DNA of 64,000 nt from Thermoplasmata archaeon (lineage in GTDB: Archaea; Thermoplasmatota; Thermoplasmata; Lutacidiplasmatales; UBA184), in assembly GCA_021817605.1 (NCBI GenBank), contig JAKAUN010000008.1:105561-169560 (forward strand), read 5' to 3'. A program made the position numbers and the translations under genes. The number at the start of each line of letters is the position of its first letter. Position 1 is the stretch's first letter. The notes beneath the pieces were generated by a model that ran no database searches, had not been told where the DNA came from, and saw nothing but the letters and a program-made list of their open reading frames with translations. This document shows positions 10,358 to 63,877 of the stretch, piece after piece.

Positions 10358-10756
10358 TCAGTCACCCCGGTCACGCCGCCGCCGAGGGGGTGGTCGACTT
10401 GCCGTGGCGGGCCTTCGAATCCACTCCTTCGCAAGCCGCAAGGTCCCCCACGTTCTTCCGGTTCTGAACTGCCGCGAGGCGAGCGAGGCGATCGGTCCGT
10501 TCCACGCGGCCCGTGAGGGCCTCATCTGGAACTGGTCCACCTTGACGATCGCCCGAGGACCTTCGGCACGGACAATCCGCAGGCTCGGGCGGGCTGCGGG
10601 GAAAGAGAATGCAACCGCTTCGCGAAGGGCCCGCTCCCACCAGGCTTGGGTGAGAGAAGGCGGAAGAGGTTCCCCGACCACCTCGACGCCGAGGTAGCGG
10701 GGGCGGGGCTTGGCGGCCCGCTTACCGGATGAGGTCGATGACTTCCTCGGACTCAC
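10358..10756 (-). CDS. RNase P protein component Pop5/Rpp14-like
   Basis: RPRYLGVEVVGE...ALREAVAFSF...RIVRAEGPRAIVKVDQFQMRPSRAAWNGP...GRTWGTLRLAKEWI resembles the archaeal Pop5 fold; overlaps the ftsZ 3' end; GTG start inferred. Confidence 0.55.
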   Translation of the reverse strand: MSPRKSSTSSGKRAAKPRPRYLGVEVVGEPLPPSLTQAWWERALREAVAFSFPAARPSLRIVRAEGPRAIVKVDQFQMRPSRAAWNGPIASLASRQFRTGRTWGTLRLAKEWIRRPATASRPPPRRRRDRGD

Positions 10757-11855
10757 CGGCCGCGTAGCCTCCCTTCTGGCCGAGGAGGCTGGTCGCACGG
10801 ACCCCCGTGATGATGAGGAGGACCTTGATCGTGTTCTCCATCTCGGGGGAGTTCTCGACCGAGCAGCCCCAGATGATGCGGGCGCGCTTGGAGATCTTGC
10901 CGCCGACCAGCGACGCCGCCTTCTCCGCCTCGCTGACGGTCATGGTCGGGCCGCCGATGACGCGCACGAGGGCGCCGGTCGCGTCCTTGAGCTCGACCGA
11001 GCCCAGGAGCGGCGAGGTGAGCGCTTCGGTGACCGCTTCCGTCACCCGGTCGGTCGCGCTCTCGCTCTCGCCGAGCCCGATGAGGGCGACCCCGCCGTCC
11101 TTCATGACGGTCAGGATGTCGGCGTAGTCGAGGTTGACGAGGCCGGGCCGCGTGACGATCTCCGTGATGCCCTTGATCGCGGTCATCAGGACCGCGTCGG
11201 CGAGCTTGAACGCCGAGTCGAGGGGCATGCGCGGAACGAGCTCGAGGAGCTTGTCGTTCTGGATGACGATGGTCGTGTCGCAGACGCGGCGAAGGCGCTC
11301 GAGGCCGTCGCGGGCCTGCTCCATCCGCGCGACCCCTTCTCCGGCGAACGGGAGCGTGACGACGCCCATGGTGAGGGCGCCGGCTTCCTTCGCAAGGCGG
11401 GCCACGAGGTGGGCGGAACCGGTCCCGGTGCCTCCTCCCATCCCTGCCGTGACGAAGACGATGTGCGCGCCGTTGAGGAACTGGCGGAGCTCCTCCTCGT
11501 TCTCGCGCGCCGCCTCCTCCCCGATCTCCGGACGGGCACCGGCGCCGAGGCCCTTGGTGGCCCGGCGGCCGATGAGGATCTTGCGCGGAGCGTGGATCGT
11601 CAGAAGGTGCTTGGCGTCGGTGTTGATGGCGCACATCTCGGCGCCCTGGATGCCCTCCTCGACGCAGCGGTTGATCGTGTTCGAGCCGCCCCCGCCGCAG
11701 CCGATGATCCGGATGTTGACCTTGAGGGTCTCCGCCAGCTTCGCGAGCTCCGCGTCGTCCGCGTTCGCGTAGGCCGGCGCGTCCGGTCTCTTCTCCTCCA
11801 CCAGGGCCTGGTTGTCCTGATGCTTTGCAATGGCTTCCTGAATGATCGACTTCAT
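10722..11855 (-). CDS. ftsZ: Cell division protein FtsZ
   Basis: IRIIGCGGGGSNTINR, NTDAKHLL, FVTAGMGGGTGTGSAHLVARLAKEAG. Confidence 0.97.
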   Translation of the reverse strand: MKSIIQEAIAKHQDNQALVEEKRPDAPAYANADDAELAKLAETLKVNIRIIGCGGGGSNTINRCVEEGIQGAEMCAINTDAKHLLTIHAPRKILIGRRATKGLGAGARPEIGEEAARENEEELRQFLNGAHIVFVTAGMGGGTGTGSAHLVARLAKEAGALTMGVVTLPFAGEGVARMEQARDGLERLRRVCDTTIVIQNDKLLELVPRMPLDSAFKLADAVLMTAIKGITEIVTRPGLVNLDYADILTVMKDGGVALIGLGESESATDRVTEAVTEALTSPLLGSVELKDATGALVRVIGGPTMTVSEAEKAASLVGGKISKRARIIWGCSVENSPEMENTIKVLLIITGVRATSLLGQKGGYAAGESEEVIDLIR

Positions 11856-12018: not shown

Positions 12019-12702
12019 ATGCCGAACCGCCTCGGGCCCATCGACACCCTGCTCCGAGAACGCCACCTGCTCAAGCACCCGTTCTACGTTGCCTGGTCGA
12101 ACGGCGAGCTTCCCCTCGAGACGCTGCGTGCGTATGCCAGCCAGTACTACCGCTTCGAGTCGAACTTTCCCCGCTTCCTCGGGGCGACGTACGCCCACCT
12201 CGATAGCCCCGCGGACCGGCGCGTGCTGCTCGAGAACATGGTCGACGAGGAGGGCCGCACGCCCACGCACCCGGAGCTCTGGCTCGACTTCGCCCGGGGG
12301 ATCGGCGTCGCCCCGGGGGCGGTGCGCGACGCCCCTCCCCTCGGCGGGACCGAGGGGTTGCTCGACTGCTACGAGCGCCTCACCCGATCGGACGCGACCA
12401 AGGGACTCTCGGCGCTCTACGCCTACGAGTCGCTCTTCCCGGAGATCGCCGCCGAGAAGTCGCGGGGGCTGCGGGCGCACTACGGGATCCGCTCGGCGCG
12501 GACCCACGAGTTCTTCCGGGTCCATACTGAGGCGGACGTCGGCCACTCGCGTGCCGAGGCCTCCATCCTCGGAACGCTCCTCGACCGCTCCCCGGCGGCG
12601 CGCAGGGCGGCGCTTTTCGCCTCGCGTCAGGCGATCGGAGCCTGGTGGTCGTTCCTCGGCCAGTTCCCGCTCCCCGGGGCTGCGGCCGGGGCCCGGCGCT
12701 AG
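12019..12702 (+). CDS. CADD/PqqC-like haem-oxygenase-fold protein (candidate p-aminobenzoate synthase)
   Basis: LLKHPFYVAWSNGELPLETLRAYASQYY...MVDEEGRTPTHPELWLDF...ALYAYESLFPEIAAEKSRGLRAHYG...FFRVHTEADVGHSRAE. Confidence 0.8.
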   Translation: MPNRLGPIDTLLRERHLLKHPFYVAWSNGELPLETLRAYASQYYRFESNFPRFLGATYAHLDSPADRRVLLENMVDEEGRTPTHPELWLDFARGIGVAPGAVRDAPPLGGTEGLLDCYERLTRSDATKGLSALYAYESLFPEIAAEKSRGLRAHYGIRSARTHEFFRVHTEADVGHSRAEASILGTLLDRSPAARRAALFASRQAIGAWWSFLGQFPLPGAAAGARR

Positions 12703-12771: not shown

Positions 12772-15700
12772 GTGGAATCGTACTTCGGCTCTCTCGAGGC
12801 CGAGGTCGACCGAGCGTACCAGACGGCCGAGCACGCCCGGGCGGTCGGCCTCGACCCCGAGGTCGTCCCTGAGATACCTCGGGCGCACGATATGGCCTCC
12901 CGCGTCGAGAAGCTCCTTCTCCATCTCGGCGTGGAGGGGATCTCCGCGGAGATCCGTGAGCTCGCGGCGAAGCTTCCGCGCGAGGAGGTGGCGGTCACCC
13001 TGGCGCGTCGTCTCGCCCAGGACACTTCGCGCGGCGCCTCGATCAAACGTCGTGTGGACGTCGCGCTGCGGGTAGGCCTCGCCATCCTCACCGAGGGGAT
13101 CCTGGTCGCTCCCCTGGAAGGGCTCGCCGAGGTCCACGTTAGGGAGAGCAGCGGCCAGAGCCCGTACATCGAGCTCTACTACGCCGGCCCGATCCGCGCC
13201 GCCGGCGGGACCGCCCAGGCGCTCAGCGTGCTGCTCGCCGACATCGTCCGACGCGACCTCGGCCTGTCCGCGTACCGTGCCGACCCGCAGGAGGTCGGCC
13301 GCTTCCAGGAGGAGATCCCGCTCTACAAGTTCTACCAGCACCTCCAGTACGTTCCGAGCGCCCAGGAGATCGCGCAGGTCGTCTCCCACCTTCCCGTGGC
13401 GATCTCGGGCGAGCCCACCGAGGGCGACGCCGAGGTGAGCGCCTTCCGTAACCTCCCTCGGGTCCGGACCAACGGGCTCCGTGGCGGGGCGTGCCTCGTC
13501 ATCGCCGAAGGGCTCTGCCAGAAGGCGCCCAAGCTGCGGAAGATCGTCGAGAAGCTCCACCTCGATGGCTGGGAGTTCCTGAGCGAGCTCGGCCGGGCGA
13601 AGACCGCCGAGGAGGACACGCGCGTCCCCAAGTATCTCCAGGACGCGGTCGGAGGGCGCCCGGTGCTGGCCCACCCGAGCCTCCCCGGGGGGTTCCGTCT
13701 CGTCTACGGGCGGGCCCGGAGCACCGGCCTCGCCTCGTGCGGCCTCAACCCGGCGACCATGGTCCTCCTCCAGCACTTCGTGGCGGTGGGCACCCAGGTC
13801 AAGCTCGAGTATCCGGGCAAGGCGGCGGCAATCGGCGTCTGCGACACCATCGAAGGGCCGATCGTCGAGCTCGACGACGGCAGCGTGACCGCCGTCCACG
13901 ACCTCGAGAGGGCCGAGCTCCTCCTCTCCCGGGTCCGGCGGATCATCGACCTCGGCGAGCTGTTGGTCGGCTTCGGCGAGTTCCTCGAGAACAATCGGCC
14001 GCTCGTCCCCGGGGCCTACTCACCGTCCTGGCATCACGAGGAGCTCCGCGCGGTAGGAGTCGACCCGGCGTCGGTCGGGGAGACGCTCGCCGACGCACGG
14101 GAGCTCTCGCGGACGAAAGGGGTCCCGCTCGACCCTCGCTGGCTGCTCTTCTGGCACGACCTCTCCCCGAGCGAGATCCGGGCCCTCGGGGAGTTCATCG
14201 AGCGCTCGGGTCGGTGGGTGGACGGCGCGCTCGAGCTGCCCGACGACCCGGCCTGGAAGGAGGCCCTCGTGCGGCTCGGCTTCCTCTTCCGACGGGTCGG
14301 GACGGACCGCCTCCGCGGGGAAGCGGACGCGAGCGCGGGGCTGGTCCTCGGCGTCGGTCTCGAGCCGGAGGGCGGCGGGTTCCTGCGGCGGGTCGCCCTC
14401 GAGCCGGTCGACCCCGACCCGCTCGTCTACGCGAGCCGGCTCGCCGGGGTCGTCCTGCGGGCCCGGGGTCCCTCGCGCGTCGGCGGGCGCGTCGGGAGGC
14501 CCGAGAAGGCGTACCCTCGGTCGATGCAGCCCAACGTACACGCCCTCTTCCCCGTCGGGGAGGCCGGCGGACCGACACGCTCGGTCCCGGAGGCGGCCCG
14601 ACGCGCCGCCGGCGCCGGCGTCCCAACCGAGCTTGGGGTGCGCCTCTGCTCGAGCTGCCAGCGGCCCACGGTGTGGAACCAGTGCACCTGCGGCGCGCAC
14701 ACGGTGCCCACTGGTGAGGTCGGCCGCCACGCCCTGCCGATCGGCACCCTCTGGCAGGATACCGTGGTCCGCCTCGGCCTCACCGAGGCGCCCGTCGTCA
14801 AGGGGGTGAAGGGGCTCACCTCACCCGGCAAGGTCCCCGAGCCGCTGGCGAAGGGAATCCTTCGGGCATCGCACCGGATCTCGGTCTACCAGGACGGGAC
14901 CGCCCGCTTCGACCTCACGAACCTTCCTCTCACCCACTTCCGTCCGAAGGAGATCGGCGTCGACCTCGCGACGCTCGCCCACCTCGGCTACCGGACCGAC
15001 TGGACGGGTGCCGAGCTCACCGACCCCGAGCAACTGGTCGAGCTGTTCCCCCAGGACGTCGTGGTCTCGCGCAGCTGCGGGGAGTATCTCCTGCGTCTCG
15101 CCCGCTTCGTCGACGACGAGCTCGTCCGGTTCTACGGCCTCGAGCCGTTCTACCGGGCACAGAGCGCCCTCGACCTGGTCGGGACACTGGTCGTCGCGCT
15201 CGCTCCCCACACCTCGGGAGGTGTCGCGGGAAGGATCGTGGGCTACACCCAGGCCGAAGCGTGCCTTGCCCATCCGGTCTTCCACGCCGCCAAGCGGCGC
15301 AACTGCGACGGGGACGAGGACTCGGTCACGCTCCTTTTGGACGCGTTGCTCAACTTCTCGAGGGCCTACCTGCCCGAGAGCCGCGGCGCCCTCATGGACA
15401 AGCCGCTCGTGCTCACCACCCGCCTCGCGGCCACGGAGGTCGACAAGGAGGCGCACAACGTCGACATCGCTTCCCGCTACCCCCTCGCGCTCTACCACGC
15501 CGCCCTCGAGCGCAAGAACCCGAAGGAGGTCGAGCCGCTGGTCGACATGGTCTCTAAGCGCCTCGGCACCCCGCGCTCGCTCTCGGACTACGGTTTCACC
15601 CACGACACCCGGCGGGTCGCCGGCGGGCCGGTGCGCTCGGCGTGCCGCGACGGCTGGCCGATGGCCGACCTGGTCGAGCGCTCCTTCGTCCTCGCGACGC

Positions 15701-16116
15701 AGATCCGGGCGGTCGATGTCGCCCAGGCGGTCACCCTCGTCCTCAACGCGCACTTCCTGCCCGACGTGATGGGCAACCTCAAGGGCTACGCGACGCAGCG
15801 GTTCCGCTGCCCGGCCTGCGGGGCGAACTACCGACGCCCGCCGCTGTGCGGACGGTGCGTCGCAAGCCGCCCGGGAGGGGCGAGCTGCGATCACGAGCTC
15901 CAGTCGACGGTCTACGAGGCGAGCGTGCGCAAGTACCTCCCGCTCTCGCGGCGTCTCGCCGAGATGCCGGGGATCACCCCCTACGTCCGCCAGCGCATCG
16001 AGCTCCTCTCCGACGCCCTCGCCACGCTCTTCCCGGCGGCGGCTGCCCAGACGACGCTCGAGACCTACAGCCGCGACTCCGAGGGCTCCTCCGCCGCCCG
16101 GGGCCCGCCGGGCTAG
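12772..16116 (+). CDS. polC: DNA polymerase D large subunit DP2 (no intein)
   Basis: Full-length 1114 aa; YIELYYAGPIRAAGGTAQALSVLLAD, AKRRNCDGDEDSVTLLLDALLNFS, C-terminal Zn clusters CPACGANYRRPPLCGRC. Confidence 0.97.
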   Translation: MESYFGSLEAEVDRAYQTAEHARAVGLDPEVVPEIPRAHDMASRVEKLLLHLGVEGISAEIRELAAKLPREEVAVTLARRLAQDTSRGASIKRRVDVALRVGLAILTEGILVAPLEGLAEVHVRESSGQSPYIELYYAGPIRAAGGTAQALSVLLADIVRRDLGLSAYRADPQEVGRFQEEIPLYKFYQHLQYVPSAQEIAQVVSHLPVAISGEPTEGDAEVSAFRNLPRVRTNGLRGGACLVIAEGLCQKAPKLRKIVEKLHLDGWEFLSELGRAKTAEEDTRVPKYLQDAVGGRPVLAHPSLPGGFRLVYGRARSTGLASCGLNPATMVLLQHFVAVGTQVKLEYPGKAAAIGVCDTIEGPIVELDDGSVTAVHDLERAELLLSRVRRIIDLGELLVGFGEFLENNRPLVPGAYSPSWHHEELRAVGVDPASVGETLADARELSRTKGVPLDPRWLLFWHDLSPSEIRALGEFIERSGRWVDGALELPDDPAWKEALVRLGFLFRRVGTDRLRGEADASAGLVLGVGLEPEGGGFLRRVALEPVDPDPLVYASRLAGVVLRARGPSRVGGRVGRPEKAYPRSMQPNVHALFPVGEAGGPTRSVPEAARRAAGAGVPTELGVRLCSSCQRPTVWNQCTCGAHTVPTGEVGRHALPIGTLWQDTVVRLGLTEAPVVKGVKGLTSPGKVPEPLAKGILRASHRISVYQDGTARFDLTNLPLTHFRPKEIGVDLATLAHLGYRTDWTGAELTDPEQLVELFPQDVVVSRSCGEYLLRLARFVDDELVRFYGLEPFYRAQSALDLVGTLVVALAPHTSGGVAGRIVGYTQAEACLAHPVFHAAKRRNCDGDEDSVTLLLDALLNFSRAYLPESRGALMDKPLVLTTRLAATEVDKEAHNVDIASRYPLALYHAALERKNPKEVEPLVDMVSKRLGTPRSLSDYGFTHDTRRVAGGPVRSACRDGWPMADLVERSFVLATQIRAVDVAQAVTLVLNAHFLPDVMGNLKGYATQRFRCPACGANYRRPPLCGRCVASRPGGASCDHELQSTVYEASVRKYLPLSRRLAEMPGITPYVRQRIELLSDALATLFPAAAAQTTLETYSRDSEGSSAARGPPG

Positions 16117-62581: not shown

Positions 62582-63877
62582 GTGCCCGTGACGCCGACGT
62601 CCCACCACCGGTTCTCGGCCCGCATCCTCGACTGGGGGAGCCTCGCCGAGATCGCTCGGGAGCTCGAGGCGACCGACAGCGACCCCGAGGGGGTCGGCAT
62701 CATGGCACGCAAGGGACGGGTCTACCCCGTCCGCCTGGACGGGGTTCCGCTCAAGGCAGCTCCGCTCCTCAAGCAGGAGCTCCTCGCCGTCGGAGGGGAC
62801 GCTGCCCATGCCCGGGGGATCGCCGACCACTCGGCGAGCTCCACCCGGGAGATCCTCCTCGCGACGTGGGGCCAGTACCAGCACCTCTTGCCGAAGCTGC
62901 GTCGCCAGCCGTTCGGGCTCGCCGAGCTCGCCGACGAGGTCGAGCGGGCCCTGCGTGCCTACGTCCGCCGTGCCCCCCGGACGGTGCGGGGCGCGCACCG
63001 CTCCGTTACCCTCGGTGAGCGGCCGCGGGTCATGGGCGTGCTCAACGTCACCCCCGACTCGTTCTCGGACGGGGGCCGCTACCTCGACAGGGCGGCGGCG
63101 GTCGCGCGCGCCGAGAAGCTCGTCGCCGACGGCGCGGACCTCCTCGACATCGGCGGGGAGTCGACGCGGCCGGGGGCGGAGGGGGTGAGCCCCGAGGCCG
63201 AGTGGGCCCGGGTGGGGCCGGTGCTCGGCGCGCTCGCCGGCCGTCTCGGCGTGCCGATCTCGATCGACACCCGCCACCCCGAGGTCGCCCGACGGGCGAT
63301 CGAGGCGGGTGCCGACCTCGTCAACGACGTCGAGGGGCTACGCTCGGAGGCGATGCGCTCGGTCGTCGCGCGGACGGGGGCGGCGGCGCTGGTGATGCAC
63401 ATGCGGGGCACCCCGACCACGATGCAGTCGGAGCTCGGCTACGAGGACCTCCGCTCGGAGGTCTACCGCTTCCTCGCCGACGCCACCGACCTCGCCCGCG
63501 CCGACGGCATCGCCGAGGAGAGCCTCCTGGTCGACCCCGGGCTCGGCTTCGGAAAGTCCCCCGAGCAGAGCTTAGAGCTCCTCCTGCACGTGGGGGAGCT
63601 CCGGGCTCTCGGCTACCCGGTGGCGGTCGGCGCTTCGAGGAAGTCGTTCCTCGGCTGGGCGACCGGCGCGGACGACCCTCTCGACCGACTCGAGGCCGGC
63701 CTGGCCGCGGCGGTCCTCGCGGGCGAGCGCGGCGTGGCGCTCGTGCGGACCCACGACGTCCGGCCGACCGTCCGCGTGCTCCGCCTGCTCGAGCGCGTCG
63801 AGCGGATCCGGCGGAAGGCGCCGTCCACGGACGAGGGTCTCGCCTCCGTCCTTCCGGAAGGCCCCTACGGGCGCTAG
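62582..63877 (+). CDS. folP: Dihydropteroate synthase with ~130-aa N-terminal extension
   Basis: RVMGVLNVTPDSFSDGGRYLDR...LLDIGGESTRPGAEGVSPEAEWARV...PISIDTRHPEVARRAIEAGADLVNDVEGL...LVDPGLGFGKSPEQSLELL...VGASRKSFLG. Confidence 0.95.
   Translation: MPVTPTSHHRFSARILDWGSLAEIARELEATDSDPEGVGIMARKGRVYPVRLDGVPLKAAPLLKQELLAVGGDAAHARGIADHSASSTREILLATWGQYQHLLPKLRRQPFGLAELADEVERALRAYVRRAPRTVRGAHRSVTLGERPRVMGVLNVTPDSFSDGGRYLDRAAAVARAEKLVADGADLLDIGGESTRPGAEGVSPEAEWARVGPVLGALAGRLGVPISIDTRHPEVARRAIEAGADLVNDVEGLRSEAMRSVVARTGAAALVMHMRGTPTTMQSELGYEDLRSEVYRFLADATDLARADGIAEESLLVDPGLGFGKSPEQSLELLLHVGELRALGYPVAVGASRKSFLGWATGADDPLDRLEAGLAAAVLAGERGVALVRTHDVRPTVRVLRLLERVERIRRKAPSTDEGLASVLPEGPYGR

Follow-up and report, generated by a model that had tools for sequence, protein, structure and literature searches.

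A probable self-sacrificing p-aminobenzoate synthase of the CADD kind in soil archaea

The synthesis of p-aminobenzoate (pABA) is poorly known in most archaea, many of which lack pabABC. Can an archaeon make the compound with a single protein that gives up parts of itself? The question is raised by a gene in the 64,000-nucleotide stretch of DNA analysed here (the window), which belongs to an uncultured soil archaeon of the Lutacidiplasmatales/UBA184 (Thermoplasmatota). Its closest relatives with a name are MAGs of Thermoplasmata that include UBA184. Lutacidiplasmatales have been described as archaea of acid soils, the gene sets of which are mostly aerobic; folate is absent from this description (PMC9287336). 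We consider it highly likely that the gene encodes an archaeal pABA synthase of the kind known as CADD in Chlamydia trachomatis and as NePabS in Nitrosomonas europaea, the product of which would be used by dihydropteroate synthase (DHPS). What was established directly is the family to which the protein belongs, the identity of its key residues, its fold, the gene content of the genomes and the mutual replacement with PabAB; chemistry, single turnover and metal are those that homology would predict.

The gene and its family

The gene extends from an ATG at 12019 to a TAG at 12702 on the forward strand (12019..12702) and encodes 227 amino acids. A second in-frame ATG is found upstream at 11842; homology begins at residue 3 of the product that starts at 12019. 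An initial annotation had placed a CADD-like protein here, and its reading frame and coordinates were right. The product reaches 205.5 bits over residues 8-215 with the NCBIfam model TIGR04305 (“CADD family putative folate metabolism protein”), i.e., it passes the curated cutoff of 200 by a small margin, and some orthologs stay slightly below it. Pfam assigns Haem_oxygenas_2 and TENA_THI-4. The best matches in the PDB, as seen by phmmer, are 1rcw (CT610/CADD; E 3.8e-42), 8va9 (8e-41) and 9pj4 (4e-38). The latter is a Nitrosomonas-type 4-aminobenzoate synthase, the numbering of which matches the NePabS (NE1434) residues of PMC11965152; one residue near Tyr25 differs from the peptide printed there.

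An AlphaFold2 model (pLDDT 95.2) displays the helical fold of the haem-oxygenase-like proteins. It superimposes on 1rcw with TM scores of 0.90/0.96 and an rmsd of 1.2 Å, and on 8va9/8vag with 1.4-1.5 Å. PqqC and BesC, other haem-oxygenase-like oxidases, share the fold of the superfamily and some of the metal ligands with the archaeal protein, but deviate by 2.1 Å or more and score much lower. The PqqC model yields 41.4 bits (equivalog cutoff 240), the BesC model 43.6 bits (equivalog cutoff 500), and in the PDB search the structures of both rank far below CADD and 9pj4.

The superfamily is diverse, and its PqqC and BesC models do match, if weakly. The protein might be an oxygenase that acts on another small molecule, as PqqC, BesC and UndA do, with a merely structural tyrosine and lysine. 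That the fold does other work is evident from a paralog in the same genome, which has the ligands without this tyrosine and lysine. Yet the CADD model and structures are ahead by a wide margin, Tyr27 and Lys152 (CADD numbering) are missing from the paralogs, the lysine is lost in the one copy that coexists with PabAB (see below), and the replacement of PabAB points to pABA. We therefore regard another substrate as very unlikely.

The neighbouring genes provide context only. An FtsZ-like gene diverges on the reverse strand (10722..11855), and a probable large subunit of DNA polymerase D (DP2) follows downstream (12772..16116, forward strand); both were assigned from their reading frames and synteny. 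The order ftsZ-CADD-polC is kept in the closest relatives. A folate gene cluster around the CADD gene was looked for and not seen: no DHPS occurs in the flanks (up to ~6 kb) of 80 relatives either.

Published CADD-type enzymes are bacterial, and PMC11965152 names bacteria only. Our literature search yielded no paper on an archaeal one. The present sequences are the first archaeal group known to us of a bacterial kind of enzyme. In a tree restricted, on the bacterial side, to the sequences nearest the query, they form one group beside the bacterial sequences (SH-aLRT 88). Low-score matches in Thermoplasmatales and in Sulfolobus, the control, were discarded, those read being different oxygenase-like proteins that lack the tyrosine and the lysine.

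Active site and proposed mechanism

CADD and its archaeal counterpart are 35% identical. The sacrificed tyrosine, the lysine, the second pair of tyrosines, the tryptophan and the six ligands that were examined in NePabS/CADD are all kept. Tyr23 (12085..12087; this and all following codons on the forward strand) aligns without gaps with the sacrificed tyrosine, Tyr27 in CADD and Tyr25 in NePabS; Lys147 (12457..12459) aligns with the amine donor, Lys152 and Lys159, respectively. Both columns are invariant. The conservation of this pair had been proposed from the sequence, with a misaligned tyrosine or lysine as the obvious pitfall; the alignment with CADD bears the proposal out. The metal-ligand pattern, which had likewise been noticed, is complete: Glu77 (12247..12249), His84 (12268..12270), Glu137 (12424..12429, together with Tyr136) and His169, Asp173 and His176 of the motif HTEADVGH (12523..12546) fall on Glu81, His88, Glu142, His174, Asp178 and His181 of CADD (numbering of 1rcw). 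A dimetal site of three histidines and three carboxylates is thereby preserved.

Further residues with a known role recur. In NePabS, Tyr41 is essential, and Tyr45 and Trp99 are needed for full activity (PMC11965152). Their equivalents are the invariant Tyr39 (12133..12135; CADD Tyr43), Tyr43 (CADD Tyr47) and Trp88 (CADD Trp92). Across 52 archaeal and bacterial members 24 columns are invariant, all catalytic ones among them, so that the residue match is not due to chance. Of 51 distinct archaeal sequences of full length, 50 have the complete catalytic set. This is not what one expects of a relic, and it speaks against the view that pABA is scavenged and the protein a leftover. Family genomes without any known route do exist, but the single relic-like copy looks clearly different from all others. 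We consider this explanation extremely improbable.

Beyond what the initial annotation had noted, the position of CADD Tyr170, which lies near the metals and is linked to metal selectivity, is taken by Phe165 (12511..12513), the counterpart of Phe177 of NePabS. Tyr136 equals Tyr141 of CADD, whereas NePabS has Phe148, and a loop of ~10 residues in NePabS is absent here. The resulting pair Tyr136/Phe165, found in 52 of 52 distinct archaeal orthologs read, is the arrangement of the NePabS variant F148Y, which is cambialistic, i.e., uses Fe/Fe and Mn/Fe about equally (PMC11965152). Activity with either metal pair is therefore predicted, the second-shell Tyr/Phe pair implying a relaxed preference, and the natural pair offers a test of the published rule for the choice between Fe/Fe and Mn/Fe. 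Apart from Phe165, the archaeal protein differs from CADD in its archaeal host and its location outside a folate gene cluster; a role in connection with death domains is not expected.

By analogy, the reaction may be envisaged as follows. The dimetal site would activate O2, and an oxidising equivalent would reach Tyr23 via aromatic residues, candidates being Tyr136, Trp88, Tyr43 and Tyr39. The side chain of Tyr23 would be cleaved between Cα and Cβ, which leaves a glycine behind, and the freed carbon would be oxidised to a carboxylate with oxygens from O2. Lys147 would donate the amine. Each protein molecule could thus yield at most one pABA, which would then be used by DHPS for tetrahydrofolate.

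Replacement of PabAB within the family

The distribution of both routes was inspected in 103 genomes of the family, all of them metagenome-assembled, which makes gene absence less certain in the incomplete ones. A CADD-type gene occurs in 70 of them and is intact in 69. A PabA-PabB fusion, which together with PabC would fill the same pathway step by an unrelated, chorismate-based route, is found in eight (G041, G197, G202, G032 and G152-G155); only these have two whole Chorismate_bind genes. PabC adjoins the fusion in G041, G032 and G152; in G197 and G202 a simple gene caller located no PabC beside the fusion. Intact CADD and PabAB occur together in none of the 103 genomes. The CADD gene and the usual pABA genes replace each other in this archaeal family. 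Fisher's test gives p 7.6e-5 for all 103 genomes and 0.04 for the 36 best ones, neither value being corrected for kinship. The PabAB genomes belong to three genera (g1, g2, g64), which implies several, but few, independent cases.

The single overlap, G041, has PabAB and PabC, and its CADD copy (L013 / L153:8955-9605, G041:C124) has an intact frame but carries Y43F, H88C, K152M and D178G (CADD numbering): the lysine, two ligands and Tyr43 are lost. Tajima tests (p 0.0003-0.02) show that its branch evolved faster than that of L059, its sister. The latter keeps CADD without PabAB; matches to the fusion in its genome do not exceed the TrpE/TrpG level. Such a natural broken copy, some 70 archaeal orthologs and the replacement pattern make the function accessible to a simple rescue test in E. 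coli.

As to oxygen, COX1, the haem-copper oxidase gene, is present in all 12 CADD-bearing genomes searched (11 with intact CADD, plus G041) and absent from the PabAB genomes G032 and G202. We think it reasonably probable that one-shot, self-sacrificing proteins supply the folate pathway throughout an order of aerobic soil archaea; that lineages without anthranilate synthase, hence without any chorismate amination, depend wholly on them; that PabAB lineages, some apparently devoid of haem-copper oxidase, lose or degrade CADD; and that the archaeal enzyme is naturally metal-promiscuous.

Folate and chorismate genes

The host genome, covered by searches and selected stretches, contains the consumer of pABA: DHPS is encoded at 62588..63877 on the forward strand (TIGR01496, 298.6 bits; cutoff 162.6), and FolD is present. 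A methanopterin-type use of pABA was rejected, as a search of the genome did not reveal a β-RFAP synthase. The haem-copper oxidase (COX1) of the host implies that O2 is used. A search of the genome for pabABC, an obvious check on the initial annotation, revealed neither pabB nor a PabC ortholog; the only Chorismate_bind gene is trpE, within a trpA-B-F-C-D-G-E/aspK/asd/aro supercluster. There are two class IV aminotransferases, each only ~30% identical to PabC of the sister genomes. It is conceivable that TrpE/TrpG and an IlvE-like lyase provide pABA and that CADD is dispensable or moonlights, the more so as TrpE and DHPS occur in genomes that lack both CADD and PabAB. But CADD genomes without any chorismate-binding gene still have DHPS, and if TrpE were enough, there would be no reason for PabAB and CADD to replace each other. 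This possibility appears very unlikely to us.

Genomes of that sort are G065, G101, G021 and G121, with CADD and DHPS but no Chorismate_bind gene. Contiguous sequence of G065 and G101 runs from trpF to aspK or asd without the trpC-D-G-E block. CADD is present in nine of the ten best-quality genomes that have no Chorismate_bind gene, all nine being near-complete. About 25 of the 103 genomes have neither CADD nor PabAB, among them G094, G147 and several that are >90% complete (e.g., G009, G115, G050 and members of genus g65), and DHPS is kept in all five tested. Another source of pABA must therefore exist in the family, candidates being uptake, an amphibolic TrpE/TrpG or an unknown enzyme, and a genome without pabABC is in itself no proof of the route. 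A stronger argument for the pathway is the mutual replacement with PabAB.

The initial annotation had inferred a one-protein, chorismate-independent and O2-dependent route to pABA. The presence of DHPS and COX1, the lack of PabB and the replacement of PabAB support this pathway well, and the archaeal protein is very probably functional. “Chorismate-independent” applies only to the action of PabB on chorismate, since tyrosine itself is derived from chorismate.

A few side observations may be added. The second haem-oxygenase-like protein mentioned above (Paralog B; G000:C3:117138-117866, reverse strand; L149:17138-17866) keeps all metal ligands and occurs in most genomes of the family; its gene adjoins that of ADTH synthase where the trp/aro supercluster ends. 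It has Phe at the position of CADD Tyr27 and Leu at that of Lys152 (four sequences read by profile alignment). As a second pABA synthase by this mechanism it was rejected; a wider alignment did not reveal a CADD-like tyrosine or lysine either. In L155:35-2195 and L220:7005-8686, trpC-D-G-E has gone from an otherwise conserved cluster and trpF is kept, which hints at an auxotrophy for tryptophan or at another function of TrpF. Finally, the DHPS at 62588-63877 carries ~140 amino acids without a Pfam match ahead of its DHPS domain; long open frames at DHPS in 21 of 21 relatives searched suggest that this N-terminal extension may be shared.
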